From: Brachycybe producta | Lineage: Eukaryota > Arthropoda > Diplopoda > Playtdesmida > Andrognathidae | Direction of reading: 5' to 3' | DNA length: 64,000 bases | NCBI GenBank assembly: GCA_036925085.1 | Contig: JAUPFP010000099.1 | Coordinates: forward strand, 248,001-312,000 | Notes under the pieces: model-generated | The model's database searches: none | Seen by the model: only the letters and a program-made list of their open reading frames with translations | Told to the model about the DNA's origin: nothing | Shown: positions 1 to 64,000 of the stretch, piece after piece | Position numbering within the stretch: position 1 is the stretch's first letter | Layout of the letters: each line of letters begins with the position of its first letter | Translations under genes and position numbers: made by a program

Positions 1-540
1 AGTTGAAGTTGAAGTTGAAATTGAAGTTGAAGTTGAAGTTGAAGTTAAAGTTGAGTTTGAAGTTAAAGTTGAAGTTGAAGTTGAAGTTGAAGTTCAAGTT
101 GAAGTTCAAGTTGAAGTTCAAGTTGAGGTTCAAGTTGAAGTTCAAGTTGAAGTTCAAGTTGAAGTTCAAGTTGAAGTTCAAGTTGAAGTTCAAGTTGAAG
201 TTCAAGTTGAAGTTCAAGTTGAAGTTCAAGTTGATGTTCAAGTTGAAGTTCAAGTTGAAGTTCAAGTTGAAGTTCAAGTTGAAGTTCAAATTGAAGTTCA
301 AGTTGAAGTTCAAGTTGAAGTTCAAGTTGAAGTTCAAGTTGAAGTTCAAGTTGAAGTTCAAGTTGAAGTTCAAGTTGAAGTTCAAGTTGAAGTTCAAGTT
401 GAAGTTCAAGTTGAAGTTCAAGTTGAAGTTCAAGTTGAAGTTCAAGTTGAAGTTCAAGTTGAAGTTCAAGTTGAAGTTCAAGTTAAAGTTCAAGTTGAAG
501 TTCAAGTTAAAGTTCAAATTGAAGTACAAGTTGAAGTTAA
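1..540. repeat. 12-mer tract with hexamer header
   Basis: A short hexamer header (GAAATT, AAAGTT, GAGTTT words) is followed by about 400 bp of almost pure GAAGTTCAAGTT. Exceptions include GAGGTT at about 125 and GATGTT at about 233. It closes with AAAGTT and GAAGTA words. The same header, tract and closing order recurs at about 5,230-5,690, so this is the 5'-truncated start of a repeat copy. No gene is present. Confidence 0.85.
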
Positions 541-660
541 AGTTGAAATTGAAGTTGAAGCTGAAGTTGAAGTTAAAGTTGCAGTTAAACTTGAAGTTAA
601 AATTGAAGTTGAAGTTAAAGTTGAAGTTGCAGTTGAAATTGCAGTTGACATTTAAGTTTA
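537..660. repeat. GCAGTT/GACATTTAA module (representative of 31)
   Basis: A variant-rich hexamer block with AAAGTT, GAAATT, GAAGCT, GCAGTT, AAACTT and AAAATT words ends in GCAGTT-GACATT-TAAGTT. GACATT starts at 647, 1007, 1367, 2580, 3932, 5800, 6040, 6394, 7511, 9216, 9954, 12211, 13087, 13518, 14322, 15198, 15629, 17153, 17596, 19283, 21565, 21913, 31227, 31575, 38779, 42676, 46561, 50096, 50444, 57952 and 59687. Nineteen lie in the first 18 kb. Copies from 38.7 kb on near the 3,897 and 1,759 HORs carry GTAGTT. Confidence 0.93.
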
Positions 661-1410
661 AGTTGAAGTTGAAACTAAAGTTGAAGTTGAATGTGAATTT
701 GAAGTTGAAGTTGAAGTTAAAGTTGAAGTTGAAGTTGAAGTTGAAGTTGAGGTTGAAGTTAAAGTTAAAGTTGGGTTTGAAGTTGAAGTTGAAGTTGAAG
801 TTGAAGTTGAAGTTGAAGTTGAAGTTGAATTTGAAGTTGAAGTTGAAGTTGAAGTTGAATTTGAAGTTGCATTTGAAGTTGAATTTGAAGTTGAAGTTAA
901 AGTTGAAATTGAAGTTGAAGCTGAAGTTGAAGTTAAAGTTGCAGTTAAACTTGAAGTTAAAATTGAAGTTGAAGTTAAAGTTGAAGTTGCAGTTGAAATT
1001 GCAGTTGACATTTAAGTTTAAGTTGAAGTTGAAACTAAAGTTGAAGTTGAATGTGAATTTGAAGTTGAAGTTGAAGTTAAAGTTGAAGTTGAAGTTGAAG
1101 TTGAAGTTGAGGTTGAAGTTAAAGTTAAAGTTGGGTTTGAAGTTGAAGTTGAAGTTGAAGTTGAAGTTGAAGTTGAAGTTGAAGTTGAATTTGAAGTTGA
1201 AGTTGAAGTTGAAGTTGAATTTGAAGTTGCATTTGAAGTTGAATTTGAAGTTGAAGTTAAAGTTGAAATTGAAGTTGAAGCTGAAGTTGAAGTTAAAGTT
1301 GCAGTTAAACTTGAAGTTAAAATTGAAGTTGAAGTTAAAGTTGAAGTTGCAGTTGAAATTGCAGTTGACATTTAAGTTTAAGTTGAAGTTGAAACTAAAG
1401 TTGAAGTTGA
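541..1410. repeat. 360-bp higher-order repeat, about 2.4 copies
   Basis: The GACATTTAA landmark falls at 647, 1007 and 1367, exactly 360 bp apart. Lines 661-1020 and 1021-1380 read identically by eye, including rare words such as GAATGT, GGGTTT and GCATTT. The third copy breaks off just after about 1,400 into 12-mers. The homologous cluster at 5,800-6,400 has spacings of 240 and 354 bp, so the unit has lost or gained whole hexamers there. Confidence 0.93.
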
Positions 1411-1936: not shown

Positions 1937-1974
1937 GAAGTCAGAGTTGAACTTTGAAGTCGATGTTAAATTTC
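1937..1974. repeat. Junction element J, type 1 (representative)
   Basis: J is a 38-bp element: GAAGTC, then AGAGTTGAACTTTGAAGTC, then a 14-base tail that differs between types. The extra base is the third T after GAAC (1955 here); it moves the register +1. The type 1 tail is GATGTTAAATTTC after GTC. Type 1a (followed by AAGTT) starts at 1937, 3301, 6856 and 18202. Type 1b (followed by AATTT) starts at 5103, 8441 and 10950. Most copies are preceded by GAATCT and AAAGTT words. Confidence 0.96.
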
Positions 1975-2117
1975 AAGTTGAAGTTCAAGTTGAAGTCAAA
2001 GTTAAATTTCAAGTTGAATCTGAAGTTGAAGTTGAAGTTGAAATTGAAGTTGAAGTTGAAGTTAAAGTTGAGTTTGAAGTTAAAGTTGAAGTTGAAGTTG
2101 AAGTTGAAGTTGAAGTT

Positions 2118-6855: not shown

Positions 6856-8440
6856 GAAGTCAGAGTTGAACTTTGAAGTCGATGTTAAATTTCAAGTTGA
6901 AGTTCAAGTTGAAGTCAAAGTTAAATTTCAAGTTGAATCTGAAGTTGAAGTTGAAGTTGAAATTGAAGTTGAAGTTGAAGTTAAAGTTGAGTTTGAAGTT
7001 AAAGTTGAAGTTGAAGTTGAAGTTGAAGTTGAAGTTGAAGTTGAAGTTGATGTTGAAGTTGAATTCAGAGTTGAAGTTGAAGTCGAAGTTAAATTTCAAG
7101 TTGAAGCTGAAGTTCAAGTTGATGTTCAAGTTGAAGTTCAAGTTGAAGTTCAAGTTGAAGTTCAAGTTGAAGTTCAAGTTGAAGTACAAGTTGAATTTCA
7201 AGTTGAAGTTCAAGTTGAAGTTCAAGTTGAAGTTCAAATTGAAGTTCAAGTTGAAGTTCAAGTTGAAGTTCAAGTTGAAGTTCAAGTTGAAGTTCAAGTT
7301 GAAGTTCAAGTTGAAGTTCAAGTTGAAGTTCAAGTTGAAGTTCAAGTTGAAGTTCAAGTTGAAGTTCAAGTTAAAGTTCAAGTTGAAGTACAAGTTGAAG
7401 TTAAAGTTGAAATTAAAGTTGAAGCTGAAGTTGAAGTTAAAGTTGCAGTTAAACTTGAAGTTAAAATTGAAGTTGAAGTTAAAGTTGAAGTTGCAGTTGA
7501 AATTGCAGTTGACATTTAAGTTGAAGTTGAAGTTGAAACTAAAGTTGAAGTTGAAGTTCAAGTTCAAGTTCAAGTTCAAGTTCAAGTTCAAGTTCAAGTT
7601 GAAGTTCAAGTTGAAGATCAAGTTGAAGTTAAAGTTGAAGTTCAAGTTGAAGTTCAAGTTGAAGTTCAAGTTGAAGTTCAAGTTGAAGTTCAAGTTGAAG
7701 TCGAAGTTAAATTTCAAGTTGAATCTGAAGTTGAAGTTGAAGTTGAAGTTGAAGTCAGAGTTGAACTTTGAAGTCAATGTTTAATTTCAAGTTGAAGTTC
7801 AAGTTGAAGTTGAAGTTCAAGTTGAAGTTCAAGTTGAAGTTCAAGTTGAAGTTCAAGTTGAAGTTCAAGTTGAAGTTCAAGTTGAAGTTCAAGTTGAAGT
7901 TCAAGTTGAAGTCGAAGTTAAATTTCAAGTTGAATCTGAAGTTGAAGTTGAAGTTGAAGTTGAAGTTGAAGTTGAAGTTGAAGTTAAAGTTGAAGTTGAA
8001 GTTGAAATTGCAGTTGAAGTTGAAATTGAATTTAAAGTTGGAGTTGAAGTTGAAGTTGAGTTGAAGTTGAAGTTAAAGTTAAAGTTGAAGTTGAAGTTGA
8101 AGTCGAAGTTAACTTTCAAGTTGAAGCTGAAGTTCAAGTTGAAGTTCAAGTTGAAGTTCAAGTTGAAGTTCAAGTTGAAGTTCAAGTTGAAGTTCAAGTT
8201 GAAGTTCAAGTTGAAGTTCAAGTTGAAGTTCAAGTTGAAGTTCAAGTTGAAGTTCAAGTTGAAGTTCAAGTTGAAGTTCAAGTTGAAGTTCAAGTTGAAG
8301 TTCAAGTTGAAGTTCAAGTTGAAGTACAAGTTGAAGTTCAAGTTGAAGTTCAAGTTGAAGTTGAAGTTGAAGTTCAAGTTGAAGTCGAAGTTAAATTTCA
8401 AGTTGAATCTGAAGTTGAAGTTAAAGTTGAAGTTGAAGTT
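6856..8440. repeat. Third 1a-to-2 junction unit plus a 690-bp segment with a register loss
   Basis: From 6856 to about 7,750 the unit matches the 1937 and 3301 units in module order, with EcoRI at 7061 and GACATTTAA at 7511. After the type 2 junction at 7751 a different segment follows, holding words such as GGAGTT and GCAGTT and a one-base loss at 8058-8062. It then continues as a long 12-mer tract to the next junction. Confidence 0.85.
8058..8062. other. Register break -1 (five-base unit GAGTT)
   Basis: GAAGTT at 8052-8057 is followed by GAGTT (five bases) and then GAAGTT at 8063. The flanking words match those around 10507-10511. One deletion event copied by segmental duplication is the simplest origin. 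Confidence 0.95.
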
Positions 8441-10949
8441 GAAGTCAGAGTTGAACTTTGAAGTCGATGTTAAATTTCAATTTGAAGTTCAAGTTGAAGT
8501 TCAAGTTGAAGTTCAAGTTGAAGTCAAAGTTAAATTTCAAGTTGAATCTGAAGTTGAAGTTGAAGTTGAAATTGAAGTTGAAGTTGAAGTTGAAGTTAAA
8601 GTTGAGTTTGAAGTTAAAGTTGAAGTTGAAGTTGAAGTTGAAGTTGAAGTTGAAGTTGAAGTTCAAGTTGAAGTTGAAGTTGAAGTTGAAGTTGAAGTTC
8701 AAGTTGAAGTTCAAGTTGAAGTTCAAGTTGAAGTTCAAGTTGAAGTTCAAGTTGAAGTTCAAGTTGAAGTTCAAGTTGAAGTTCAAGTTGAAGTTCAAGT
8801 TGAAGTTCAAGTTGAAGTTCAAGTTGATGTTCAAGTTGACGTTCAAGTTGAAGTTCAAGTTGAAGTTCAAGTTGAAGTTCAAGTTGAAGTTCAAGTTGAA
8901 GTTCAAGTTGAAGTTCAAATTGAAGTTCAAGTTGAAGTTCAAGTTGAAGTTCAAGTTGAAGTTCAAGTTGAAGTTCAAGTTGAAGTTCAAGTTGAAGTTC
9001 AAGTTGAAGTTCAAGTTGAAGTTCAAGTTGAAGTTCAAGTTGAAGTTCAAGTTGAAGTTCAAGTTGAAGTTCAAGTTCAAGTTCAAGTTGAAGTACAAGT
9101 TGAAGTTAAAGTTGAAATTGAAGTTGAAGCTGAAGTTGAAGTTAAAGTTGCAGTTAAACTTGAAGTTAAAATTGAAGTTGAAGTTAAAGTTGAAGTTGCA
9201 GTTGAAATTGCAGTTGACATTTAAGTTTAAGTTGAAGTTGAAACTAAAGTTGAAGTTGAATGTGAATTTGAAGTTGAAGTTGAAGTTAAAGTTGAAGTTG
9301 AAGTTGAAGTTGAAGTTGAGGTTGAAGTTAAAGTTAAAGTTGGGTTTGAAGTTGAAGTTGAAGTTGAAGTTGAAGTTGAAGTTGAAGTTGAAGTTGAATT
9401 TGAAGTTGAAGTTGAAGTTGAAGTTGAATTTGAAGTTGCATTTGAAGTTGAATTTGAAGTTGAAGTTAAAGTTGAAATTGAAGTTGAAGCTGAAGTTGAA
9501 GTTAAAGTTGAGGTTAAACTTGAAGTTAAAATTGAAGTCGAAGTTAAATTTCAAGTTGAAGCTGAAGTTCAAGTTGATGTTCAAGTTGAAGTTCAAGTTG
9601 AAGTTCAAGTTGAAGTTCAAGTTGAAGTTCAAGTTGAAGTACAAGTTGAATTTCAAGTTGAAGTTCAAGTTGAAGTTCAAGTTGAAGTTCAAATTGAAGT
9701 TCAAGTTGAAGTTCAAGTTGAAGTTCAAGTTGAAGTTCAAGTTGAAGTTCAAGTTGAAGTTCAAGTTGAAGTTCAAGTTGAAGTTCAAGTTGAAGTTCAA
9801 GTTCAAGTTCAAGTTCAAGTTCAAGTTGAAGTACAAGTTGAAGTTAAAGTTGAAATTAAAGTTGAAGCTGAAGTTGAAGTTAAAGTTGCAGTTAAACTTG
9901 AAGTTAAAATTGAAGTTGAAGTTAAAGTTGAAGTTGCAGTTGAAATTGCAGTTGACATTTAAGTTGAAGTTGAAGTTGAAACTAAAGTTGAAGTTGAAGT
10001 TGAAGTTCAAGTTCAAGTTCAAGTTCAAGTTCAAGTTCAAGTTCAAGTTCAAGTTCAAGTTGAAGATCAAGTTGAAGTTCAAGTTGAAGTTCAAGTTGAA
10101 GTTCAAGTTGAAGTTCAAGTTGAAGTTCAAGTTGAAGTTCAAGTTGAAGTCGAAGTTAAATTTCAAGTTGAATCTGAAGTTGAAGTTGAAGTTGAAGTTG
10201 AAGTCAGAGTTGAACTTTGAAGTCAATGTTTAATTTCAAGTTGAAGTTCAAGTTGAAGTTGAAGTTCAAGTTGAAGTTCAAGTTGAAGTTCAAGTTGAAG
10301 TTCAAGTTGAAGTTCAAGTTGAAGTTCAAGTTGAAGTTCAAGTTGAAGTTCAAGTTGAAGTCGAAGTTAAATTTCAAGTTGAATCTGAAGTTGAAGTTGA
10401 AGTTCAAGTTGAAGTTGAAGTTGAAGTTGAAGTTAAAGTTGAAGTTGAAGTTGAAATTGCAGTTGAAGTTGAAATTGAATTTAAAGTTGGAGTTGAAGTT
10501 GAAGTTGAGTTGAAGTTGAAGTTAAAGTTAAAGTTGAAGTTGAAGTTGAAGTCGAAGTTAAATTTCAAGTTGAAGCTGAAGTTCAAGTTGAAGTTCAAGT
10601 TGAAGTTCAAGTTGAAGTTCAAGTTGAAGTTCAAGGTGAAGTTCAAGTTGAAGTTCAAGTTGAAGTTCAAGTTGAAGTTCAAGTTGAAGTTCAAGTTGAA
10701 GTTCAAGTTGAAGTTCAAGTTGAAGTTCAAGTTGAAGTACAAGTTGAAGTTCAAGTTGAAGTTCAAGTTGAAGTTGAAGTTGAAGTTCAAGTTGAAGTCG
10801 AAGTTAAATTTCAAGTTGAGGTTGAAGTTGAAGTTGAAGTTGAAGTTCAAGTTGAAGTTCAAGTTGAAGTTCAAGTTGAAGTTCAAGTTGAAGTCGAAGT
10901 TAAATTTCAAGTTGAATCTGAAGTTGAAGTTAAAGTTGAAGTTGAAGTT
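8441..10949. repeat. Junction units 8441-10199 and 10200-10949
   Basis: A type 1b junction opens a 1,759-bp unit: header, 12-mer tract, GATGTT-CAAGTT-GACGTT at 8826-8843, GACATTTAA at 9216, a GGGTTT-containing hexamer block, a second 12-mer tract, GACATTTAA at 9954 and a CAAGTT run. It ends at the type 2 junction at 10200. The following 750 bp repeat the 7751-8440 segment, including its -1 register break. A private CAAGGT variant lies near 10,632. Confidence 0.85.
10507..10511. other. Register break -1 (second copy of the GAGTT event)
   Basis: GAAGTT at 10501-10506, then GAGTT, then GAAGTT from 10512. Sequence context is the same as at 8058-8062. Confidence 0.95.
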
Positions 10950-11820: not shown

Positions 11821-11862
11821 GACGTTCAAGTTGACGTTCAAGTTGACGTTCAAGTTGACGTT
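11821..11862. repeat. GACGTT quadruplet, copy 1
   Basis: Four GACGTT words at 11821, 11833, 11845 and 11857 alternate with CAAGTT. This clusters four CpG sites at 12-bp spacing in an otherwise CpG-poor array. Confidence 0.95.
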
Positions 11863-12738: not shown

Positions 12739-13158
12739 CAAGTTGAAGTTCAAGTTGAAGTTCAAGTTGAAGTTCAAGTTGAAGTTCAAGTTGAAGTTCA
12801 AATTGAAGTTCAAGTTGAAGTTCAAGTTGAAGTTCAAGTTGAAGTTCAAGTTGAAGTTCAAGTTGAAGTTCAAGTTGAAGTTCAAGTTGAAGTTCAAGTT
12901 GAAGTTCAAGTTGAAGTTCAAGTTGAAGTTCAAGTTGAAGTTCAAGTTAAAGTTCAAGTTGAAGTACAAGTTGAAGTTAAAGTTGAAATTGAAGTTGAAG
13001 CTGAAGTTGAAGTTAAAGTTGCAGTTAAACTTGAAGTTAAAATTGAAGTTGAAGTTAAAGTTGAAGTTGCAGTTGAAATTGCAGTTGACATTTAAGTTTA
13101 AGTTGAAGTTGAAACTAAAGTTGAAGTTGAAGTTGAAGTTGAAGTTGAAGTTGAAATT

Positions 13159-13175
13159 GAGATGGAGTTATTGTT
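13159..13175. other. Register break -1 (GAGATG-GAGTTA-TTGTT), copy 1
   Basis: The words GAGATG and GAGTTA are followed by a five-base TTGTT. GAAGTT resumes at 13176, one base short. This is the most diverged spot in the array: GAGATG differs from GAAGTT at three positions. Confidence 0.93.
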
Positions 13176-14849: not shown

Positions 14850-15269
14850 CAAGTTGAAGTTCAAGTTGAAGTTCAAGTTGAAGTTCAAGTTGAAGTTCAA
14901 GTTGAAGTTCAAATTGAAGTTCAAGTTGAAGTTCAAGTTGAAGTTCAAGTTGAAGTTCAAGTTGAAGTTCAAGTTGAAGTTCAAGTTGAAGTTCAAGTTG
15001 AAGTTCAAGTTGAAGTTCAAGTTGAAGTTCAAGTTGAAGTTCAAGTTGAAGTTCAAGTTAAAGTTCAAGTTGAAGTACAAGTTGAAGTTAAAGTTGAAAT
15101 TGAAGTTGAAGCTGAAGTTGAAGTTAAAGTTGCAGTTAAACTTGAAGTTAAAATTGAAGTTGAAGTTAAAGTTGAAGTTGCAGTTGAAATTGCAGTTGAC
15201 ATTTAAGTTTAAGTTGAAGTTGAAACTAAAGTTGAAGTTGAAGTTGAAGTTGAAGTTGAAGTTGAAATT

Positions 15270-15286
15270 GAGATGGAGTTATTGTT
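15270..15286. other. Register break -1, copy 2
   Basis: Same words as at 13159, displaced by exactly 2,111 bp, so inherited by HOR duplication rather than arising again. Confidence 0.93.
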
Positions 15287-16804: not shown

Positions 16805-17224
16805 CAAGTTGAAGTTCAAGTTGAAGTTCAAGTTGAAGTTCAAGTTGAAGTTCAAATTGAAGTTCAAATTGAAGTTCAAGTTGAAGTTCAAGTTGAAGTT
16901 CAAGTTGAAGTTCAAGTTGAAGTTCAAGTTGAAGTTCAAGTTGAAGTTCAAGTTGAAGTTCAAGTTGAAGTTCAAGTTGAAGTTCAAGTTGAAGTTCAAG
17001 TTGAAGTTCAAGTTAAAGTTCAAGTTGAAGTACAAGTTGAAGTTAAAGTTGAAATTGAAGTTGAAGCTGAAGTTGAAGTTAAAGTTGCAGTTAAACTTGA
17101 AGTTAAAATTGAAGTTGAAGTTAAAGTTGAAGTTGCAGTTGAAATTGCAGTTGACATTTAAGTTTAAGTTGAAGTTGAAACTAAAGTTGAAGTTGAAGTT
17201 GAAGTTGAAGTTGAAGTTGAAATT

Positions 17225-17241
17225 GAGATGGAGTTATTGTT
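17225..17241. other. Register break -1, copy 3
   Basis: Same words, 1,955 bp after copy 2. Confidence 0.93.
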
Positions 17242-28150: not shown

Positions 28151-30127
28151 GAAGTCAGAGTTGAACTTTGAAGTCGATGTTAAATTTTAAGTTGAAGTTC
28201 AAGTTGAAGTTCAAGTTGAAGTTCAAGTTGAAGTCGAAGTTAAATTTCAAGTTGAATCTGAAGTTGAAGTTGAAATTGAAGTTGAAGTTGAAGTTGAAGT
28301 TGAAGTTGAAGTTAAAGTTGAGTTTGAAGTTGAAGTTGAAGTTGAAGTTGATGTTGAAGTTGAATTCAGAGTTGAAGTTGTAGTCGAAGTTAAATTTCAA
28401 GTTGAAGCTGAAGTTCAAGTTGATGTTCAAGTTGAAGTTCAAGTTTAAGTTGAAGTTCAAGTTCAAGTTGAAGTTCAAGTTGAAGTTCAAGTTGAAGTTC
28501 AAGTTGAAGTTCAAGTTGAAGTTCAAGTTAAAGTTCAAGTTGAAGTTCAAGTTGAAGTTCAAGTTGAAGTTCAAGTTGAAGTTCAAGTTGAAGTTCAAGT
28601 TGAAGTACAAGTTGAAGTTCAAGTTGAAGTTCAAGTTGAAGTTCAAGTTGAAGTCGAAGTTAAATTTCAAGTTGAGGTTGAAGTTGAAGTTGAAGTTGAA
28701 GTTGAAGTTGAAATTGAAGTTGAAGTTGAAGTTGAAGTTGAATTTGAAGTTAAAGTTGACTTTGAAGTTGAAGTTGAAGTTGAAGTTAATGTTGAAGTTG
28801 CAGTTAAAGTTGAAGTTGAGTTTGAAGTTAAAGTTGAAGTTGAAGTTGAAGTTGATGTTGAAGTTGAATTCAGAGTTGAAGTTGAAGTCGAAGTTAAATT
28901 TCAAGTTGAAGCTGAAGTTCAAGTTGATGTTCAAGTGGAAGTCAGAGTTGAACTTTGAAGTCGATGTTAAATTTTAAGTTGAAGTTCAAGTTGAAGTTCA
29001 AGTTGAAGTTGAAGTTGAAGTTCAAGTTGAAGTTCAAGTTGAAGTCGAAGTTAAATTTCAAGTTGAATCTGAAGTTGAAGTTGAAATTGAAGTTGAAGTT
29101 GAAGTTGAAGTTGAAGTTGAAGTTAAAGTTGAGTTTGAAGTTGAAGTTAAAGTTGAAGTTGATGTTGAAGTTGAATTCAGAGTTGAAGTTGAAGTCGAAG
29201 TTAAATTTCAAGTTGAAGCTGAAGTTCAAGTTGATGTTCAAGTTGAAGTTCAAGTTGAAGTTCAAGTTGAAGTTCAAGTTGAAGTCGAAGTTAAATTTCA
29301 AGTTGAATCTGAAGTTGAAGTTAAAGTTGAAGTTGAAGTTGAAGTCAGAGTTGAACTTTGAAGTCGATGTTAAATTTTAAGTTGAAGTTCAAGTTGAAGT
29401 TCAAGTTGAAGTTCAAGTTGAAGTCGAAGTTAAATTTCAAGTTGAATCTGAAGTTGAAGTTGAAATTGAAGTTGAAGTTGAAGTTGAAGTTGAAGTTGAA
29501 GTTAAAGTTGAGTTTGAAGTTGAAGTTGAAGTTGAAGTTGATGTTGAAGTTGAATTCAGAGTTGAAGTTGTAGTCGAAGTTAAATTTCAAGTTGAAGCTG
29601 AAGTTCAAGTTGATGTTCAAGTTGAAGTTCAAGTTTAAGTTGAAGTTCAAGTTCAAGTTGAAGTTCAAGTTGAAGTTCAAGTTGAAGTTCAAGTTGAAGT
29701 TCAAGTTGAAGTTCAAGTTAAAGTTCAAGTTGAAGTTCAAGTTGAAGTTCAAGTTGAAGTTCAAGTTGAAGTTCAAGTTGAAGTTCAAGTTGAAGTACAA
29801 GTTGAAGTTCAAGTTGAAGTTCAAGTTGAAGTTCAAGTTGAAGTCGAAGTTAAATTTCAAGTTGAGGTTGAAGTTGAAGTTGAAGTTGAAGTTGAAGTTG
29901 AAATTGAAGTTGAAGTTGAAGTTGAAGTTGAATTTGAAGTTAAAGTTGACTTTGAAGTTGAAGTTGAAGTTGAAGTTAATGTTGAAGTTGCAGTTAAAGT
30001 TGAAGTTGAGTTTGAAGTTAAAGTTGAAGTTGAAGTTGAAGTTGATGTTGAAGTTGAATTCAGAGTTGAAGTTGAAGTCGAAGTTAAATTTCAAGTTGAA
30101 GCTGAAGTTCAAGTTGATGTTCAAGTG
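28151..30127. repeat. 1,190-bp tandem duplication
   Basis: Junctions at 28151/29341 and 28938/30128 are each exactly 1,190 bp apart. The rare CAAGTG-GAAGTC step just before the junctions at 28938 and 30128 is shared. The equivalent junctions at 20460 and 63525 have CAAGTT there, so the T-to-G change predates this duplication but is confined to it. Confidence 0.93.
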
Positions 30128-36100: not shown

Positions 36101-37760
36101 AAAGTTGAGTTTGAAGTTGAAGTTGAAGTTGAAGTTGATGTTGAAGTTGAAGTACAAGTTGAAGTTCAAGTTGAAGTTCAAGTTGAAGTTCAATTTCAAG
36201 TTGAGGTTGAAGTTGAAGTTGAAGTTGAAGTTGAAGTTGAAATTGAAGTTGAAGTTGAAGTTGAAGTTGAATTTGAAGTTAAAGTTGACTTTGAAGTTGA
36301 AGTTGAAGTTGAAGTTAATGTTGAAGTTGCAGTTAAAGTTGAAGTTGAGTTTGAAGTTGAAGTTGAAGTTGAAGTTGATGTTGAAGTTGAATTCAGAGTT
36401 GAAGTTGAAGTCGAAGTTAAATTTCAAGTTGAAGCTGAAGTTCAAGTTGATGTTCAAGTTGAAGTTCAAGTTGAAGTTCAAGTTGAAGTCGAAGTTAAAT
36501 TTCAAGTTGAATCTGAAGTTGAAGTTAAAGTTGAAGTTGAAGTTGAAGTCAGAGTTGAACTTTGAAGTCGATGTTAAATTTTAAGTTGAAGTTCAAGTTG
36601 AAGTTGAAGTTGAAGTTCAAGTTGAAGTTCAAGTTGAAGTCGAAGTTAAATTTCAAGTTGAATCTGAAGTTGAAGTTGAAATTGAAGTTGAAGTTGAAGT
36701 TGAAGTTGAAATTGAAGTTAAAGTTGAGTTTGAAGTTGAAGTTAAAGTTGAAGTTGATGTTGAAGTTGAATTCAGAGTTGAAGTTGAAGTCGAAGTTAAA
36801 TTTCAAGTTGAAGCTGAAGTTCAAGTTGATGTTCAAGTTGAAGTTCAAGTTGAAGTTCAAGTTGAAGTTCAAGTTGAAGTTCAAGTTGAAGTTCAAGTTG
36901 AAGTTCAAGTTGAAGTTCAAGTTGAAGTTCAAGTTGAAGTTCAAGTTGAAGTTCAAGTTGAAGTTCAAGTTGAAGTTCAAGTTGAAGTTCAAGTTGAAGT
37001 TCACGTTGAAGTTCAAATTGAAGTTCAAGTTGAAGTTCAAGTTGAAGTTCAAATTGAAGTTCAAGTTGAAGTTCAAGTTGAAGTACAAGTTGAAGTTCAA
37101 GTTGAAGTTCAAGTTTAAGTTGAAGTTCAAGTTGAAGTTCAAGTTGAAGTTCAAGTTGAATTTCAAGTTGAAGTTCAAGTTGAAGTTGAAGTTGAAGTTA
37201 ATGTTAAAGTTGCAGTTAAAGTTGAAGTTGAGTTTGAAGTTGAAGTTGAAGTTGAAGTTGATGTTGAAGTTGAATTCAGAGTTGAAGTTGAAGTCGAAGT
37301 TAAATTTCAAGTTGAAGCTGAAGTTCAAGTTGATGTTCAAGTTGAAGTTCAAGTTGAAGTTCAAGTTGAAGTTCAAGTTGAAGTCGAAGTTAAATTTCAA
37401 GTTGAATCTGAAGTTGAAGTTAAAGTTGAAGTTGAAGTTGAAGTCAGAGTTGAACTTTGAAGTCGATGTTAAATTTTAAGTTGAAGTTCAAGTTGAAGTT
37501 GAAGTTGAAGTTCAAGTTGAAGTTCAAGTTGAAGTTCAAGTTGAAGTCGAAGTTAAATTTCAAGTTGAATCTGAAGTTGAAGTTGAAATTGAAGTTGAAG
37601 TTGAAGTTGAAGTTGAAGTTGAAGTTAAAGTTGAGTTTGAAGTTGAAGTTAAAGTTGAAGTTGATGTTGAAGTTGAATTCAGAGTTGAAGTTGAAGTCGA
37701 AGTTAAATTTCAAGTTGAAGCTGAAGTTCAAGTTGATGTTCAAGTTGAAGTTCAAGTTGA
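30128..37760. repeat. Copy B of block A
   Basis: Junctions at 30128, 33687, 35926, 36545 and 37440 match the first five of block A at +9,668, +9,686, +9,686, +9,674 and +9,680. Modules correspond: GACGTT/GACATT at 30801/30813, paired GACATTTAA at 31227/31575, GATAAT at 30351, 33261 and 35488. Private changes in B include GGATTT near 33,219 and AACGTT near 33,249, the latter creating a GTTAAC site. Confidence 0.92.
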
Positions 37761-39477
37761 AGTTCAAGTTGAAGTTCAAGTTGAAGTTCAAGTTGAAGTT
37801 CAAGTTGAAGTTCAAGTTGAAGTTCAAGTTGAAGTTCAAGTTGAAGTTCAAGTTGAAGTTCAAGTTGAAGTTCAAGTTGAAGTTCAAGTTGAAGTTCAAG
37901 TTGAAGTTCAAGTTGAAGTTCAAATTGAAGTTCAAGTTGAAGTTCAAGTTGAAGTTCAAATTGAAGTTCAAGTTGAAGTTCAAGTTGAAGTACAAGTTGA
38001 AGTTCAAGTTGAAGTTCAAGTTTAAGTTGAAGTTCAAGTTGAAGTTCAAGTTGAAGTTCAAGTTGAATTTCAAGTTGAAGTTCAAGTTGAAGTTCAAGTT
38101 GAAGTTCAAGTTGAAGTTCAAGTTGAAGTTCAAGTTGAAGTTCAAGTTGAAGTTCAAGTTCAAGTTCAAGTTGATGTTGAAGTTGAATTCAGAGTTGAAG
38201 TTGAAGTCGAAGTTAAATTTCAAGTTGAAGCTGAAGTTCAAGTTGATGTTCAAGTTGAAGTTCAAGTTGAAGTTCAAGTTGAAGTTCAAGTTGAAGTTCA
38301 AGTTCAAGTTGAAGTTCAAGTTGAAGTTCAAGTTGAAGTTCAAGTTGAAGTTCAAGTTGAAGTTCAAGTTGAAGTTCAAGTTGAAGTTCAAGTTGAAGTT
38401 CAAGTTGTAGTACAAGTTGAAGTTCAAGTTGAAGTTCAAGTTGAAGTTCAAGTTGAAGTCGAAGTTAAATTTCAAGTTGAGGTTGAAGTAGAAGTTCAAG
38501 TTCAAGTTCAAGTTGAAGTTGAAGTTGAAATTGAAGTTGAAGTTGAAGTTGAAGTTGAATTTGAAGTTGAATTTGAAGTTGAATTTGAAGTTAAAGTTGA
38601 AGTTGAATTTGAAGTTGAATTTGAAGTTGAATTTGAAGTTGAATTTGAAGTTGAATTTGAAGTTGAAGTTAAAGTTGAAATTGTAGTTGAAGCTGAAGTT
38701 CAAGTTAAAGTTGCAGTTAAACTTGAAGTTAAAATTGAAGTTGAAGTTAAAGTTGTAGTTGCAGTTAAAATTGCAGTTGACATTTAAGTTGAAGTTGAAG
38801 TTGAAACTAAAGTTGAAGTTGAAGTTGAAGTTGAAGTTGAAGTTGAAGGTGAATTTGAAGTTGAAGTTGAAGTTCAAGTTAAAGTTCAATTTCAAGTTGA
38901 AGTTCAAGTTGAAGTTCAAGTTGAAGTTCAAGTTAAAGTTCAAGTTGAAGTTCAAGTTGAATTTCAAGTTGAAGTTCAAGTTGAAGTTCAAGTTGAAGTT
39001 CAAGTTGAAGTTCAAGTTGAAGTTCAAGTTGAAGTACAAGTTGAAGTTCAAGTTGAAGTTCAAGTTCAAGTTCAAGTTGAAGTTCAAGTTGAAGTTCAAG
39101 TTGAAGTTCAAGTTGAAGTTGAAGTTGAAGTTGAAGTTGAAGTTGAAATTGAAGTTGAAGTTGAAGTTGAAGTTGAATTTGAAGTTAAAGTTGACTTTGA
39201 AGTTGAAGTTGAAGTTAATGTTGAAGTTGCAGTTAAAGTTGAAGTTGAAATTAAAGTTGAAGTTGAAGTTGAAGTTGAAGTTGAAGTTGAATTTGAAGTT
39301 GAATTTGAAGTTAAAGTTGAAGTTGAATTTGAAGTTGAATTTGAAGTTTAAGTTAAAGTTGAAATTGTAGTTGAAGCTGAAGTTGAAGTTAAAGTTGCAG
39401 TTAAACTTGAAGTTAAAATTGATGTTCAAGTTGAAGTTCAAGTTGAAGTTCAAGTTGAAGTTGAAGTTCAAGTTGAA
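35581..39477. repeat. 3,897-bp HOR, copy 1
   Basis: The copy boundary is placed at the GGTGAATTT step, which recurs exactly 3,897 bp later. It contains junctions at 35926, 36545 and 37440, EcoRI sites at 36389, 36768, 37272, 37675 and 38185, and a GACATTTAA variant at 38779 preceded by GTAGTT and AAAATT words. 3,897 equals 6x649+3, as expected for three +1 junctions. It overlaps the end of copy B, from which this HOR probably arose. Confidence 0.93.
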
Positions 39478-42400
39478 GGTGAATTTGAAGTTGAAGTTGA
39501 AGTTAAAGTTGAAGTTAAAGTTGAAGTTGAAGTTGAAGTTGAAGTTAAAGTTAAAGTTGAAGTTCAAGTTGAAGTACAAGTTGAAGTTCAAGTTGAAGTT
39601 CAAGTTGAAGTTCAAGTTGAAGTTCAAGTTGAAGTTCAAGTTGAAGTTCAAGTTGAAGTACAAGTTGAAGTTCAAGTTGAAGTTCAAGTTGAATTTCAAG
39701 TTGAAGTTCAAGTTGAAGTTCAAGTTGAAGTTCAAGTTGAAGTTCAAGTTGAAGTTCAAGTTGAAGTCGAAGTTAAATTTCAAGTTGAATCTGAAGTTGA
39801 AGTTAAAGTTGAAGTTGAAGTTGAAGTCAGAGTTGAACTTTGAAGTCGATGTTAAATTTTAAGTTGAAGTTCAAGTTGAAGTTCAAGTTGAAGTTCAAGT
39901 TGAAGTTCAAGTTGAAGTTCAAGTTGAAGTCGAAGTTAAATTTCAAGTTGAATCTGAAGTTGAAGTTGAAATTGAAGTTGAAGTTGAAGTTGAAGTTAAA
40001 GTTGAGTTTGAAGTTGAAGTTGAAGTTGAAGTTGATGTTGAAGTTGAAGTACAAGTTGAAGTTCAAGTTGAAGTTCAAGTTGAAGTTCAATTTCAAGTTG
40101 AGGTTGAAGTTGAAGTTGAAGTTGAAGTTGAAGTTGAAATTGAAGTTGAAGTTGAAGTTGAAGTTGAATTTGAAGTTAAAGTTGACTTTGAAGTTGAAGT
40201 TGAAGTTGAAGTTAATGTTGAAGTTGCAGTTAAAGTTGAAGTTGAGTTTGAAGTTGAAGTTGAAGTTGAAGTTGATGTTGAAGTTGAATTCAGAGTTGAA
40301 GTTGAAGTCGAAGTTAAATTTCAAGTTGAAGCTGAAGTTCAAGTTGATGTTCAAGTTGAAGTTCAAGTTGAAGTTCAAGTTGAAGTCGAAGTTAAATTTC
40401 AAGTTGAATCTGAAGTTGAAGTTAAAGTTGAAGTTGAAGTTGAAGTCAGAGTTGAACTTTGAAGTCGATGTTAAATTTTAAGTTGAAGTTCAAGTTGAAG
40501 TTGAAGTTGAAGTTCAAGTTGAAGTTCAAGTTGAAGTCGAAGTTAAATTTCAAGTTGAATCTGAAGTTGAAGTTGAAATTGAAGTTGAAGTTGAAGTTGA
40601 AGTTGAAATTGAAGTTAAAGTTGAGTTTGAAGTTGAAGTTAAAGTTGAAGTTGATGTTGAAGTTGAATTCAGAGTTGAAGTTGAAGTCGAAGTTAAATTT
40701 CAAGTTGAAGCTGAAGTTCAAGTTGATGTTCAAGTTGAAGTTCAAGTTGAAGTTCAAGTTGAAGTTCAAGTTGAAGTTCAAGTTGAAGTTCAAGTTGAAG
40801 TTCAAGTTGAAGTTCAAGTTGAAGTTCAAGTTGAAGTTCAAGTTGAAGTTCAAGTTGAAGTTCAAGTTGAAGTTCAAGTTGAAGTTCAAGTTGAAGTTCA
40901 CGTTGAAGTTCAAATTGAAGTTCAAGTTGAAGTTCAAGTTGAAGTTCAAATTGAAGTTCAAGTTGAAGTTCAAGTTGAAGTACAAGTTGAAGTTCAAGTT
41001 GAAGTTCAAGTTTAAGTTGAAGTTCAAGTTGAAGTTCAAGTTGAAGTTCAAGTTGAATTTCAAGTTGAAGTTCAAGTTGAAGTTGAAGTTGAAGTTAATG
41101 TTAAAGTTGCAGTTAAAGTTGAAGTTGAGTTTGAAGTTGAAGTTGAAGTTGAAGTTGATGTTGAAGTTGAATTCAGAGTTGAAGTTGAAGTCGAAGTTAA
41201 ATTTCAAGTTGAAGCTGAAGTTCAAGTTGATGTTCAAGTTGAAGTTCAAGTTGAAGTTCAAGTTGAAGTTCAAGTTGAAGTCGAAGTTAAATTTCAAGTT
41301 GAATCTGAAGTTGAAGTTAAAGTTGAAGTTGAAGTTGAAGTCAGAGTTGAACTTTGAAGTCGATGTTAAATTTTAAGTTGAAGTTCAAGTTGAAGTTGAA
41401 GTTGAAGTTCAAGTTGAAGTTCAAGTTGAAGTTCAAGTTGAAGTCGAAGTTAAATTTCAAGTTGAATCTGAAGTTGAAGTTGAAATTGAAGTTGAAGTTG
41501 AAGTTGAAGTTGAAGTTGAAGTTAAAGTTGAGTTTGAAGTTGAAGTTAAAGTTGAAGTTGATGTTGAAGTTGAATTCAGAGTTGAAGTTGAAGTCGAAGT
41601 TAAATTTCAAGTTGAAGCTGAAGTTCAAGTTGATGTTCAAGTTGAAGTTCAAGTTGAAGTTCAAGTTGAAGTTCAAGTTGAAGTTCAAGTTGAAGTTCAA
41701 GTTGAAGTTCAAGTTGAAGTTCAAGTTGAAGTTCAAGTTGAAGTTCAAGTTGAAGTTCAAGTTGAAGTTCAAGTTGAAGTTCAAGTTGAAGTTCAAGTTG
41801 AAGTTCAAGTTGAAGTTCAAATTGAAGTTCAAGTTGAAGTTCAAGTTGAAGTTCAAATTGAAGTTCAAGTTGAAGTTCAAGTTGAAGTACAAGTTGAAGT
41901 TCAAGTTGAAGTTCAAGTTTAAGTTGAAGTTCAAGTTGAAGTTCAAGTTGAAGTTCAAGTTGAATTTCAAGTTGAAGTTCAAGTTGAAGTTCAAGTTGAA
42001 GTTCAAGTTGAAGTTCAAGTTGAAGTTCAAGTTGAAGTTCAAGTTGAAGTTCAAGTTCAAGTTCAAGTTGATGTTGAAGTTGAATTCAGAGTTGAAGTTG
42101 AAGTCGAAGTTAAATTTCAAGTTGAAGCTGAAGTTCAAGTTGATGTTCAAGTTGAAGTTCAAGTTGAAGTTCAAGTTGAAGTTCAAGTTGAAGTTCAAGT
42201 TCAAGTTGAAGTTCAAGTTGAAGTTCAAGTTGAAGTTCAAGTTGAAGTTCAAGTTGAAGTTCAAGTTGAAGTTCAAGTTGAAGTTCAAGTTGAAGTTCAA
42301 GTTGTAGTACAAGTTGAAGTTCAAGTTGAAGTTCAAGTTGAAGTTCAAGTTGAAGTCGAAGTTAAATTTCAAGTTGAGGTTGAAGTAGAAGTTCAAGTTC

Positions 42401-43374
42401 AAGTTCAAGTTGAAGTTGAAGTTGAAATTGAAGTTGAAGTTGAAGTTGAAGTTGAATTTGAAGTTGAATTTGAAGTTGAATTTGAAGTTAAAGTTGAAGT
42501 TGAATTTGAAGTTGAATTTGAAGTTGAATTTGAAGTTGAATTTGAAGTTGAATTTGAAGTTGAAGTTAAAGTTGAAATTGTAGTTGAAGCTGAAGTTCAA
42601 GTTAAAGTTGCAGTTAAACTTGAAGTTAAAATTGAAGTTGAAGTTAAAGTTGTAGTTGCAGTTAAAATTGCAGTTGACATTTAAGTTGAAGTTGAAGTTG
42701 AAACTAAAGTTGAAGTTGAAGTTGAAGTTGAAGTTGAAGTTGAAGGTGAATTTGAAGTTGAAGTTGAAGTTCAAGTTAAAGTTCAATTTCAAGTTGAAGT
42801 TCAAGTTGAAGTTCAAGTTGAAGTTCAAGTTAAAGTTCAAGTTGAAGTTCAAGTTGAATTTCAAGTTGAAGTTCAAGTTGAAGTTCAAGTTGAAGTTCAA
42901 GTTGAAGTTCAAGTTGAAGTTCAAGTTGAAGTACAAGTTGAAGTTCAAGTTGAAGTTCAAGTTCAAGTTCAAGTTGAAGTTCAAGTTGAAGTTCAAGTTG
43001 AAGTTCAAGTTGAAGTTGAAGTTGAAGTTGAAGTTGAAGTTGAAATTGAAGTTGAAGTTGAAGTTGAAGTTGAATTTGAAGTTAAAGTTGACTTTGAAGT
43101 TGAAGTTGAAGTTAATGTTGAAGTTGCAGTTAAAGTTGAAGTTGAAATTAAAGTTGAAGTTGAAGTTGAAGTTGAAGTTGAAGTTGAATTTGAAGTTGAA
43201 TTTGAAGTTAAAGTTGAAGTTGAATTTGAAGTTGAATTTGAAGTTTAAGTTAAAGTTGAAATTGTAGTTGAAGCTGAAGTTGAAGTTAAAGTTGCAGTTA
43301 AACTTGAAGTTAAAATTGATGTTCAAGTTGAAGTTCAAGTTGAAGTTCAAGTTGAAGTTGAAGTTCAAGTTGAA
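39478..43374. repeat. 3,897-bp HOR, copy 2
   Basis: All landmarks fall at +3,897 from copy 1: junctions 39823, 40442 and 41337, and GACATTTAA 42676. Sampled stretches and the long open-frame translations match copy 1 by eye, including the rare CACGTT variant (about 37,003 and 40,900). Confidence 0.94.
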
Positions 43375-46300
43375 GGTGAATTTGAAGTTGAAGTTGAAGT
43401 TAAAGTTGAAGTTAAAGTTGAAGTTGAAGTTGAAGTTGAAGTTAAAGTTAAAGTTGAAGTTCAAGTTGAAGTACAAGTTGAAGTTCAAGTTGAAGTTCAA
43501 GTTGAAGTTCAAGTTGAAGTTCAAGTTGAAGTTCAAGTTGAAGTTCAAGTTGAAGTACAAGTTGAAGTTCAAGTTGAAGTTCAAGTTGAATTTCAAGTTG
43601 AAGTTCAAGTTGAAGTTCAAGTTGAAGTTCAAGTTGAAGTTCAAGTTGAAGTTCAAGTTGAAGTCGAAGTTAAATTTCAAGTTGAATCTGAAGTTGAAGT
43701 TAAAGTTGAAGTTGAAGTTGAAGTCAGAGTTGAACTTTGAAGTCGATGTTAAATTTTAAGTTGAAGTTCAAGTTGAAGTTCAAGTTGAAGTTCAAGTTGA
43801 AGTTCAAGTTGAAGTTCAAGTTGAAGTCGAAGTTAAATTTCAAGTTGAATCTGAAGTTGAAGTTGAAATTGAAGTTGAAGTTGAAGTTGAAGTTAAAGTT
43901 GAGTTTGAAGTTGAAGTTGAAGTTGAAGTTGATGTTGAAGTTGAAGTACAAGTTGAAGTTCAAGTTGAAGTTCAAGTTGAAGTTCAATTTCAAGTTGAGG
44001 TTGAAGTTGAAGTTGAAGTTGAAGTTGAAGTTGAAATTGAAGTTGAAGTTGAAGTTGAAGTTGAATTTGAAGTTAAAGTTGACTTTGAAGTTGAAGTTGA
44101 AGTTGAAGTTAATGTTGAAGTTGCAGTTAAAGTTGAAGTTGAGTTTGAAGTTGAAGTTGAAGTTGAAGTTGATGTTGAAGTTGAATTCAGAGTTGAAGTT
44201 GAAGTCGAAGTTAAATTTCAAGTTGAAGCTGAAGTTCAAGTTGATGTTCAAGTTGAAGTTCAAGTTGAAGTTCAAGTTGAAGTCGAAGTTAAATTTCAAG
44301 TTGAATCTGAAGTTGAAGTTAAAGTTGAAGTTGAAGTTGAAGTCAGAGTTGAACTTTGAAGTCGATGTTAAATTTTAAGTTGAAGTTCAAGTTGAAGTTG
44401 AAGTTGAAGTTCAAGTTGAAGTTCAAGTTGAAGTCGAAGTTAAATTTCAAGTTGAATCTGAAGTTGAAGTTGAAATTGAAGTTGAAGTTGAAGTTGAAGT
44501 TGAAATTGAAGTTAAAGTTGAGTTTGAAGTTGAAGTTAAAGTTGAAGTTGATGTTGAAGTTGAATTCAGAGTTGAAGTTGAAGTCGAAGTTAAATTTCAA
44601 GTTGAAGCTGAAGTTCAAGTTGATGTTCAAGTTGAAGTTCAAGTTGAAGTTCAAGTTGAAGTTCAAGTTGAAGTTCAAGTTGAAGTTCAAGTTGAAGTTC
44701 AAGTTGAAGTTCAAGTTGAAGTTCAAGTTGAAGTTCAAGTTGAAGTTCAAGTTGAAGTTCAAGTTGAAGTTCAAGTTGAAGTTCACGTTGAAGTTCAAAT
44801 TGAAGTTCAAGTTGAAGTTCAAGTTGAAGTTCAAATTGAAGTTCAAGTTGAAGTTCAAGTTGAAGTACAAGTTGAAGTTCAAGTTGAAGTTCAAGTTTAA
44901 GTTGAAGTTCAAGTTGAAGTTCAAGTTGAAGTTCAAGTTGAATTTCAAGTTGAAGTTCAAGTTGAAGTTGAAGTTGAAGTTAATGTTAAAGTTGCAGTTA
45001 AAGTTGAAGTTGAGTTTGAAGTTGAAGTTGAAGTTGAAGTTGATGTTGAAGTTGAATTCAGAGTTGAAGTTGAAGTCGAAGTTAAATTTCAAGTTGAAGC
45101 TGAAGTTCAAGTTGATGTTCAAGTTGAAGTTCAAGTTGAAGTTCAAGTTGAAGTTCAAGTTGAAGTCGAAGTTAAATTTCAAGTTGAATCTGAAGTTGAA
45201 GTTAAAGTTGAAGTTGAAGTTGAAGTCAGAGTTGAACTTTGAAGTCGATGTTAAATTTTAAGTTGAAGTTCAAGTTGAAGTTGAAGTTGAAGTTCAAGTT
45301 GAAGTTCAAGTTGAAGTTCAAGTTGAAGTCGAAGTTAAATTTCAAGTTGAATCTGAAGTTGAAGTTGAAATTGAAGTTGAAGTTGAAGTTGAAGTTGAAG
45401 TTGAAGTTAAAGTTGAGTTTGAAGTTGAAGTTAAAGTTGAAGTTGATGTTGAAGTTGAATTCAGAGTTGAAGTTGAAGTCGAAGTTAAATTTCAAGTTGA
45501 AGCTGAAGTTCAAGTTGATGTTCAAGTTGAAGTTCAAGTTGAAGTTCAAGTTGAAGTTCAAGTTGAAGTTCAAGTTGAAGTTCAAGTTGAAGTTCAAGTT
45601 GAAGTTCAAGTTGAAGTTCAAGTTGAAGTTCAAGTTGAAGTTCAAGTTGAAGTTCAAGTTGAAGTTCAAGTTGAAGTTCAAGTTCAAGTTCAAGTTGAAG
45701 TTCAAATTGAAGTTCAAGTTGAAGTTCAAGTTGAAGTTCAAATTGAAGTTCAAGTTGAAGTTCAAGTTGAAGTACAAGTTGAAGTTCAAGTTGAAGTTCA
45801 AGTTTAAGTTGAAGTTCAAGTTGAAGTTCAAGTTGAAGTTCAAGTTGAATTTCAAGTTGAAGTTCAAGTTGAAGTTCAAGTTGAAGTTCAAGTTGAAGTT
45901 CAAGTTGAAGTTCAAGTTGAAGTTCAAGTTGAAGTTCAAGTTCAAGTTCAAGTTGATGTTGAAGTTGAATTCAGAGTTGAAGTTGAAGTCGAAGTTAAAT
46001 TTCAAGTTGAAGCTGAAGTTCAAGTTGATGTTCAAGTTGAAGTTCAAGTTGAAGTTCAAGTTGAAGTTCAAGTTGAAGTTCAAGTTCAAGTTGAAGTTCA
46101 AGTTGAAGTTCAAGTTGAAGTTCAAGTTGAAGTTCAAGTTGAAGTTCAAGTTGAAGTTCAAGTTGAAGTTCAAGTTGAAGTTCAAGTTGTAGTACAAGTT
46201 GAAGTTCAAGTTGAAGTTCAAGTTGAAGTTCAAGTTGAAGTCGAAGTTAAATTTCAAGTTGAGGTTGAAGTAGAAGTTCAAGTTCAAGTTCAAGTTGAAG

Positions 46301-47258
46301 TTGAAGTTGAAATTGAAGTTGAAGTTGAAGTTGAAGTTGAATTTGAAGTTGAATTTGAAGTTGAATTTGAAGTTAAAGTTGAAGTTGAATTTGAAGTTGA
46401 ATTTGAAGTTGAATTTGAAGTTGAATTTGAAGTTGAATTTGAAGTTGAAGTTAAAGTTGAAATTGTAGTTGAAGCTGAAGTTCAAGTTAAAGTTGCAGTT
46501 AAACTTGAAGTTAAAATTGAAGTTGAAGTTAAAGTTGTAGTTGCAGTTAAAATTGCAGTTGACATTTAAGTTGAAGTTGAAGTTGAAACTAAAGTTGAAG
46601 TTGAAGTTGAAGTTGAAGTTGAAGTTGAAGGTGAATTTGAAGTTGAAGTTGAAGTTCAAGTTAAAGTTCAATTTCAAGTTGAAGTTCAAGTTGAAGTTCA
46701 AGTTGAAGTTCAAGTTAAAGTTCAAGTTGAAGTTCAAGTTGAATTTCAAGTTGAAGTTCAAGTTGAAGTTCAAGTTGAAGTTCAAGTTGAAGTTCAAGTT
46801 GAAGTTCAAGTTGAAGTACAAGTTGAAGTTCAAGTTGAAGTTCAAGTTCAAGTTCAAGTTGAAGTTCAAGTTGAAGTTCAAGTTGAAGTTCAAGTTGAAG
46901 TTGAAGTTGAAGTTGAAGTTGAAGTTGAAATTGAAGTTGAAGTTGAAGTTGAAGTTGAATTTGAAGTTAAAGTTGACTTTGAAGTTGAAGTTGAAGTTAA
47001 TGTTGAAGTTGCAGTTAAAGTTGAAGTTGAAATTAAAGTTGAAGTTGAAGTTGAAGTTGAAGTTGAAGTTGAATTTGAAGTTGAATTTGAAGTTTAAAGT
47101 TGAAGTTGAATTTGAAGTTGAATTTGAAGTTTAAGTTAAAGTTGAAATTGTAGTTGAAGCTGAAGTTGAAGTTAAAGTTGCAGTTAAACTTGAAGTTAAA
47201 ATTGATGTTCAAGTTGAAGTTCAAGTTGAAGTTCAAGTTGAAGTTGAAGTTCAAGTTA
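43375..47258. repeat. 3,897-bp HOR, copy 3 (-12 and +1 bp)
   Basis: Junctions at 43720 and 44339 keep the 3,897 spacing. The third, at 45222, is 3,885 bp after its counterpart, a loss of one 12-mer. One extra T lies at 47095. Similarity to copy 2 stops at about 47,258, where AAAGTT-GAGTTT replaces GAAGGT-GAATTT. That is almost exactly one full unit. Confidence 0.92.
47093..47095. other. Register break +1 (extra T), private to HOR copy 3
   Basis: GAAGTT at 47089-47094 is followed by an extra T and then AAAGTT from 47096. HOR copy 2 has GAAGTT-AAAGTT with no extra base at the matching place. It is the only +1 break outside the junction elements. It may be a young mutation or a T-homopolymer consensus error. 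Confidence 0.93.
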
Positions 47259-63100: not shown

Positions 63101-63524
63101 AGTTCAAGTTAAAGTTCAAGTTGAAGTTCAAGTTGAAGTTCAAGTTGAAGTTCAAGTTGAAGTTCAAGTTGAAGTTCAAGTTGAAGTACAAGTTGAAGTT
63201 CAAGTTGAAGTTCAAGTTGAAGTTCAAGTTGAAGTCGAAGTTAAATTTCAAGTTGAGGTTGAAGTTGAAGTTGAAGTTGAAGTTGAAGTTGAAGTTGAAA
63301 TTGAAGTTGAAGTTGAAGTTGAAGTTGAATTTGAAGTTAAAGTTGACTTTGAAGTTGAAGTTGAAGTTGAAGTTAATGTTGAAGTTGCAGTTAAAGTTGA
63401 AGTTGAGTTTGAAGTTAAAGTTGAAGTTGAAGTTGAAGTTGATGTTGAAGTTGAATTCAGAGTTGAAGTTGAAGTCGAAGTTAAATTTCAAGTTGAAGCT
63501 GAAGTTCAAGTTGATGTTCAAGTT
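60160..63524. repeat. Copy of block A 3' part (25.7-28.9 kb)
   Basis: CAGTTTAATTT and GATAAT (60329) modules precede type 3 junctions at 60773, 61404, 62275 and 62666. Spacings of 631, 871, 391 and 859 parallel 631, 889, 391 and 787 in block A. The offset to A is 34,533 bp, then 34,515 after an 18-bp loss. The 859-bp unit is longer than its 787-bp counterpart because it holds extra 12-mers (72 bp), including an added GAAGTA word. Confidence 0.9.
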
Positions 63525-64000
63525 GAAGTCAGAGTTGAACTTTGAAGTCGATGTTAAATTTTAAGTTGAAGTTCAAGTTGAAGTTCAAGTTGAAGTTGAA
63601 GTTGAAGTTGAATTTGAAGTTGAATTTGAAGTTGAATTTGAAGTTGAAGTTAAAGTTGAATTTGATAATGAAGTTCAAGTTGAAGTTCAAGTTGAAGTTC
63701 AAGTTGAAGTACAAGTTGAAGTTCAAATTGAAGTTCAAGTTGAAGTACAAGTTGAAGTTCAAGTTGAAGTTCAAGTTGAAGTTCAAGTTGAAGTTCAAGT
63801 TGAAGTTCAAGTTGAAGTTCAAGTTGAAGTTCAAGTTGAAGTTCAAGTTGAAGTTCAAGTTGAAGTTCAAGTTGTAGTTCAAGTTGAAGTTCAAGTTGAA
63901 GTTCAAGTTGAAGTTCAAGTTGAAGTTCAAGTTGAAGTTCAAGTTGAAGTTCAAGTTGAAGTTCAAGTTGACGTTCAAGTTGACATTCAAGTTGAAGTTC
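63525..64000. repeat. Start of another block A-like copy
   Basis: A type 3 junction is followed by GAATTT words, GATAAT (63664), a 12-mer tract with a GTAGTT word and GACGTT-CAAGTT-GACATT at 63970-63987. This is the order seen after 20460 and 30128. The 12-mer section is shorter, and the window ends inside the copy. Confidence 0.88.

Follow-up and report, generated by a model that had tools for sequence, protein, structure and literature searches.

The six-letter rhythm of the satellite array described here is very probably the residue of copying in whole-unit blocks together with rare point indels, and the rhythm itself does not appear to be protected. We analyzed a stretch of 64,000 bp (hereafter the window; bases 248001-312000 of contig C99, which measures 458,539 bp, in an assembly of 295.3 Mb and 442 contigs). 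Long copies within the window are identical or nearly so, the lengths of these copies differ by multiples of six, the register breaks are of four kinds, and the regular pattern is lost outside the window.

Composition of the hexamer array

The entire window (1-64000, plus strand) is occupied by GAAGTT / CAAGTT hexamers arranged head-to-tail (~10,700 units), as part of one longer array on C99. A one-strand version of the same satellite was present in all 15 of the other C99 stretches sampled, so that the short tandem unit extends over many kilobases beyond the 64 kb analyzed. About half of the window units lie in zones of a 12-bp dimer (GAAGTTCAAGTT), and the other half lie in GAAGTT monomer zones. 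Mismatches were 4.6 times fewer in dimer-zone units (n = 5,295) than in monomer-zone units (n = 5,372), and the monomer-zone units hold 45/45 register breaks of the window, versus none in the dimer-zone units. The longest homopolymer in the 64 kb is 4 nucleotides. Judged by its sequence, the array is most likely simple, non-coding satellite DNA. The window contains 53 GAATTC (EcoRI) sites. One variant, GAATTCAGAGTT, contains an EcoRI site and occurs in 52 copies in the window; the heptamer CAGAGTT is common to GAATTCAGAGTT (52 places) and to the motif GAAGTCAGAGTT of the J elements described below (39 places), i.e., 91 copies in total, perhaps reflecting a single old origin.

Register changes in the window

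The first-pass annotation had accounted exactly for the 6-bp register of the whole window, and this bookkeeping held when we applied a dynamic-programming parse in which the phase may jump at a fixed cost: the 45 changes comprise 39 J elements (+1), one further +1 at 47094, and five changes of -1. The same number follows from exact GAAGTT words, which form 46 constant-phase runs. The phases at the two ends also agree: GAAGTT is first encountered at position 5 (5 mod 6) and last at 63994 (4 mod 6), and 5 + 39 - 5 + 1 = 40 = 4 mod 6. At jump costs of 2, 3, 4, and 6, the parse returned 40 changes of +1, 5 changes of -1, and none of any other size; the break places, which were printed for costs 2 and 3, matched those annotated previously to within 1 bp. 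Costs of 1.4 and 1.7 yielded the same breaks, with no additional one >20 bp from a known break.

Compensating +1/-1 pairs, which would undo this bookkeeping, were absent at costs of 1.4 or more, but at a cost of 1.1 the parse introduced 104 further breaks, including possible -1/+1 pairs. The 60 of these 104 breaks that were listed make up 30 such pairs, each 4 bp apart. The 52 pairs expected from 104 breaks equal the number of GAATTCAGAGTT copies, a match that is based on the equal count and on inspection by eye at 2145 rather than on a pair-by-pair comparison. The pairs at GAATTCAGAGTT may be compensating indels or clustered substitutions, and one motif may hence hide a compensated pair. At a cost of 0.8, the parse fragments, with small jumps at hundreds of places.

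All 45 changes belong to one of four kinds—J, the unit GAGTT (2 places), the unit GAGAT (3 places), and the T at 47094—copied along with their surroundings; when counted by 25-base context, the indel contexts in the window number 6, since J varies. Net phase drift over the window is +35 bases, and the array occupies each of the six phases to a similar extent (717-924 exact GAAGTT each). Unit GAGTT, in which one A of AA is missing, produces the -1 breaks at 8059 (8054-8064) and, in the same context, at 10508 (10503-10513), whereas unit GAGAT produces those at 13160 (13155-13166) and, again in the same context, at 15271 (15266-15277) and 17226 (17221-17232), all on the plus strand. The remaining +1 break (47088-47098, plus strand) consists of one extra T at 47094, both flanks of which match copies at offsets -3,885 and -7,782. 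This T is a recent, uncompensated single-copy insertion of 1 bp; it could be a sequencing error, in which case recent non-6n indels would number 0 versus 16 substitutions. An exact repeat ends at this place, and we considered a non-homologous junction there, which was ruled out by the copies matching again past the extra T.

The J elements

Each J element has a core of 25 bp that carries one extra T (GAACTT T GAAGT) and shifts the register by +1. The 39 cores lie on the plus strand between 1949 and 63561, with starts at 1949, 2838, 3313, 4178, 5115, 6868, 7763, 8453, 10212, 10962, 18214, 19679, 20472, 24013, 26252, 26883, 27772, 28163, 28950, 29353, 30140, 33699, 35938, 36557, 37452, 39835, 40454, 41349, 43732, 44351, 45234, 53498, 56523, 58282, 60785, 61416, 62287, 62678, and 63537. 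The extra T is present in 39/39 cores, and a J form lacking it was seen neither in the window nor in the outside loci that were compared. As annotated from the letters, J-to-J distances are 6n+1 in 34 of 38 cases, and the four exceptions (690, 750, 7,252, and 8,264 bp) contain exactly the extra breaks named above. Spacing ranges from 391 to 8,264 bp, and the array shows no regular block period.

Over positions -60 to +45, the 39 J elements represent 7 haplotypes, and each element shares an identical stretch, 161 to 5,316 bp long, with another J. The main form occurs in 99 exact copies in the genome (94 on C99, 4 on C147, and 1 on C204), and this near confinement to C99 indicates that J is a local lineage. 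We also asked whether J might be a functional box. Ungapped columns vary by 0.03-0.04 at J versus 0.07-0.20 at 30-240 bp away, a comparison that is uninformative because the alignment was anchored on J and slippage displaces the more distant columns.

Differences between recent copies

A block of 3,897 bp carrying three J elements is triplicated in tandem at 35573-47257 (plus strand), with a repeat of 5,316 bp that is exact at an offset of 3,897; the third copy of the block differs by a single substitution, a 12-bp indel, and the extra T at 47094. Likewise, the segment 19476-28095 recurs at 29150-37787 (plus strand; offset ~9.67 kb), and this pair, compared in two chained parts separated by 32 bp where extension stopped, has 6 substitutions and 18 indels of 6n and lacks non-6n indels. 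Across 12 block pairs obtained by greedy extension, we counted 17 substitutions, 34 indels of 6n, and 1 non-6n indel over 36,514 bp. With two overlapping comparisons removed, the figures are 16 substitutions, 32 indels of 6n, and 1 non-6n indel (47094) over 29,565 bp, the remaining comparisons still being partly non-independent. Greedy extension accepts a difference only when 40 exact bases follow it, meaning that clustered changes end the extension and go uncounted. A cheap-gap alignment of 8 block pairs (44 non-6n gaps) was discarded, having run into unrelated neighborhoods and aligned two pairs with themselves.

The segments between successive J elements gave a similar picture. From 118 pairs of similar length, those that differ by <0.5% join 26 of the 38 segments into an 18-edge forest (18,984 bp), which contains 7 substitutions, 29 indels of 6n (29/29 indels), and 0 non-6n indels. 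Non-6n gaps were seen in 5 of the 60 pairs listed among the 118, all involving the two segments with the -1 breaks at 8059 or 10508.

The register outside the window

When intervals were defined by the exact main-form J pattern, 27/31 were 6n+1 in the window, relative to 8/38 to its left on C99 and 11/22 to its right; for intervals <4 kb, the corresponding fractions were 27/29, 6/29, and 10/18 (both sets omit two intervals that cross the window edges). J variants missed by the exact pattern add 1 each and can explain spacings of 6n+2, whereas spacings of 0, 3, 4, or 5 mod 6 require additional changes or multiple undetected variants. This loss of the 6n+1 pattern beyond the window indicates that the regularity is a property of the window and not of the satellite family.

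Breaks per C99 stretch ranged from 2 to 35, with 35 breaks (18 contexts) in 10 kb at the left end of the contig and 22 breaks (14 contexts) in 8.5 kb at its right end; the loci L009, L023, and L036 had 2.6-4 breaks per kb. Related arrays are present on contigs C53 and C17. The phase changes at least 6 times over 4.4 kb of C17 (25 of 100 listed places used), 4 breaks lie in one kb at the end of C53, and 19 of 39 C53 intervals >50 bp are out of phase (67 places used, 28 of them between closer neighbors). On C53, spacings of the dimer 28-mer were 3 mod 6 in 8/39 intervals >50 bp, which suggests that shifts of 3 happen on that contig; the window showed none.

Several further observations concern the genome around these arrays. 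Samples L026 and L027 (G000:C53:1-1000 and 200001-201000) hold a different repeat, each carrying two occurrences of GAAGCATGCAGTGCACAC, or of a close variant, within its first 300 bases. Among the 1-kb C53 samples from 600 kb to the contig end (L029-L036), the hexamer array lies on the minus strand in six samples (600 to 1,101 kb), no satellite is present at 1.2 Mb, and the hexamer array at the contig end lies on the plus strand, i.e., orientation changes within one contig. TTAGG repeats are present in the genome, and a 28-mer of TTTAGGG is absent. For COX1 of contig C442, the millipedes Antrokoreana and Abacion rank highest among the best 120 of 7,999 scored matches, at 85% identity, and the host is probably a millipede. 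COX1-like stretches with TGA codons in large contigs, at G000:C1:12697416-12698753 and G000:C17:3332011-4029047 are probably nuclear copies of mitochondrial DNA.

Indel-to-substitution ratios and neutral simulation

To compare stretches, we counted distinct 25-base contexts, which are not independent events. Indel versus substitution contexts numbered 6 versus 359 in the window (0.017), 47 versus 1,411 in C99 as a whole (window plus 15 stretches; 0.033), and 9 versus 507 in 11 C53 samples (0.018). The ratio varies ~40-fold along C99, from 1 versus 235 in L021 (0.004) to 18 versus 108 in L009 (0.17). Four overlapping C53 loci with 8.4-8.7% mismatch had 3 breaks of one context versus 201 substitution contexts (0.005), and six 1-kb C53 samples had 5 breaks in 4 contexts versus 343 substitution contexts. 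By zone, indel versus substitution contexts were 47 versus 1,274 for monomer and 4 versus 219 for dimer (window, C99 stretches, and L036, with 4 kb at the window edges counted in two stretches for both units and breaks).

Mismatch and break density correlated at a Spearman coefficient of 0.49 (p 0.06) over the 15 C99 stretches and of -0.01 once the 11 C53 samples were added. The idea that older stretches simply carry more breaks was rejected, as the C53 samples are diverged yet break-poor. Since some diverged stretches (C53 and L021) have few breaks, youth alone is not the reason for a low number, and the weak or absent correlation suggests that breaks follow lineages with amplified variants more than they follow age.

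The first-pass annotation had stated that random 1-bp indels would normally build up in such an array. We used a simple simulation of neutral evolution with in-register duplications, a homogeneous start, and chosen block sizes, stopping at the divergence of the window; a 24-run pilot at one rate came before the main simulation, in which runs were kept if they had 250-470 substitution contexts (185-210 of 240 per rate). Six or fewer indel contexts were obtained in 86, 79, 63, 35, 5, and 0.5% of runs at 0.01, 0.02, 0.03, 0.05, 0.1, and 0.15 indels per substitution, respectively, and ≤6 contexts together with ≤45 breaks in 55%, 28%, and 5% of runs at 0.03, 0.05, and 0.1. The expectation thus depends on the rate: it fails at ≤0.05 indels per substitution, where the window is unremarkable, and stands at ≥0.1. 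In the simulation, the window is ordinary at the ratio observed for the family, borderline at 0.1, and odd at 0.15. For Chironomus riparius, the portion of PMC6121839 drawn on here gives new indels about as common as substitutions (25 versus 26), with 21/25 new 1-2 bp indels in A/T runs; outside A/T runs, 4 indels versus 26 substitutions remain, or ~0.15 from small numbers. That last value counts against regarding the window as ordinary, because only 0.5% of simulated runs at 0.15 match it.

Proposed mechanism and alternatives

In the mechanism we propose, slippage would add new copies one or a few units at a time, and larger blocks would be duplicated by homology-guided exchange or break-induced replication. 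Only in-register pairing is homologous, so duplicated blocks would join in register; as slippage and block duplication both leave the phase unshifted, register changes would come only from point indels. These would be rare in the window because it contains no homopolymer >4 and because much of it consists of very recent copies with few point mutations of any class. Indels that predate amplification (J, GAGTT, and GAGAT) would have been copied with their neighborhoods, and one new insertion (47094) would have been added since. Unequal exchange and break-induced replication both fit, and the data do not separate them. We infer that the indel rate in this homopolymer-poor DNA is low and that the register evolves neutrally; homology itself would bring such joins into register, and the phase need not be protected.

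The first-pass annotation had offered three readings of the array: great youth, very active homogenization, or constraint in phase. Youth and active homogenization, through whole-unit slippage and in-register block duplication, are supported, but constraint in phase is not. If selection, or a protein or structure counting in sixes, removed out-of-phase indels, one would expect the few kinds of break in 64 kb, the 6n+1 intervals between most J elements, and the break-poor, diverged C53 samples; nevertheless, the net phase drifts and takes all six values, J has been amplified despite shifting it, the insertion at 47094 stands uncompensated, the 6n+1 spacing is lost elsewhere on C99, and L009, L023, and L036, as well as the C17 and C53 arrays, change phase often. 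We therefore regard such phase-holding as very unlikely. Even less credible, to the point of being negligible, is translation of the array with a reading frame that restricts indels to multiples of 6. Open frames of up to 2,162 codons do exist on the minus strand, but the longest consists mainly of AAC, TTC, and TTG, and open frames follow from the repeat unit because a single change in AAC or TTC never gives a stop. Moreover, every break shifts the frame, and indels of 3n but not 6n, which a frame would tolerate, were not seen between recent copies.

Two other explanations are improbable, though less so than phase-holding. An assembly consensus might have erased real 1-bp indels and made the regular register partly an artifact; yet a 1-bp difference survives between otherwise identical copies at 47094, such differences survive often in L009 and L023, and long homopolymers are absent. 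Alternatively, indels might be purged from heteroduplex between copies, e.g., by mismatch repair acting on 1-base loops, with recombination cleaning the register. There is a small chance that recombination removes 1-base loops more readily than it does base mismatches, such that arrays that turn over proofread their register and neglected ends lose it; if true, this self-proofreading would leave as its trace the ~40-fold spread of ratios along C99 and the break-poor, diverged C53 loci. The low ratios in the window, L021, and the C53 loci relative to L009 fit this idea, but 1 non-6n indel versus 16 substitutions between recent copies is not low, and J, GAGTT, and GAGAT have been multiplied instead of removed. 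The uneven ratio along arrays may instead be lineage chance, and it is the one loose end remaining. The striking regularity of the satellite can be explained by a count of events in place of copies, with 45 breaks reduced to four kinds of event; most of the surprise goes once this is done and the rest of C99 is examined.

Comparison with known satellites

Taken as a whole, the evidence makes it likely that this stretch is an ordinary young hexamer satellite. An account of a GAAGTT / CAAGTT repeat was not found in a limited literature search judged by title and abstract, and the parts of PMC12181768 and PMC7523956 drawn on here do not mention a satellite. A megablast comparison of 2 kb of the window with phage sequences, in which simple repeats are filtered, gave no match. 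In this host, probably a myriapod, a long assembled array with a marker such as J would allow slippage, block duplication, and point indels to be measured side by side.

Under the Smith model, as set out in the parts of PMC8997354 and PMC8122249 drawn on here, simple-sequence satellites evolve via slippage, unequal exchange, and gene conversion. The array resembles such satellites in its short units, its very long head-to-tail arrangement on one strand, its copy numbers, which differ by whole units (6n accounts for 32 of the 33 indels that separate recent copies), and its block duplication; it differs from those described in its unit, GAAGTT / CAAGTT, and in its host. The same portion of PMC8997354 models higher-order repeats through unequal exchange and break-induced replication. 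Like the higher-order repeats of alpha satellite, the window contains near-identical multi-unit blocks (the 5,316-bp repeat and others) in which sets of variant units have been duplicated together and in register; unlike them, it has a unit of 6 or 12 bp and, with J spacing from 391 to 8,264 bp, no single block period.
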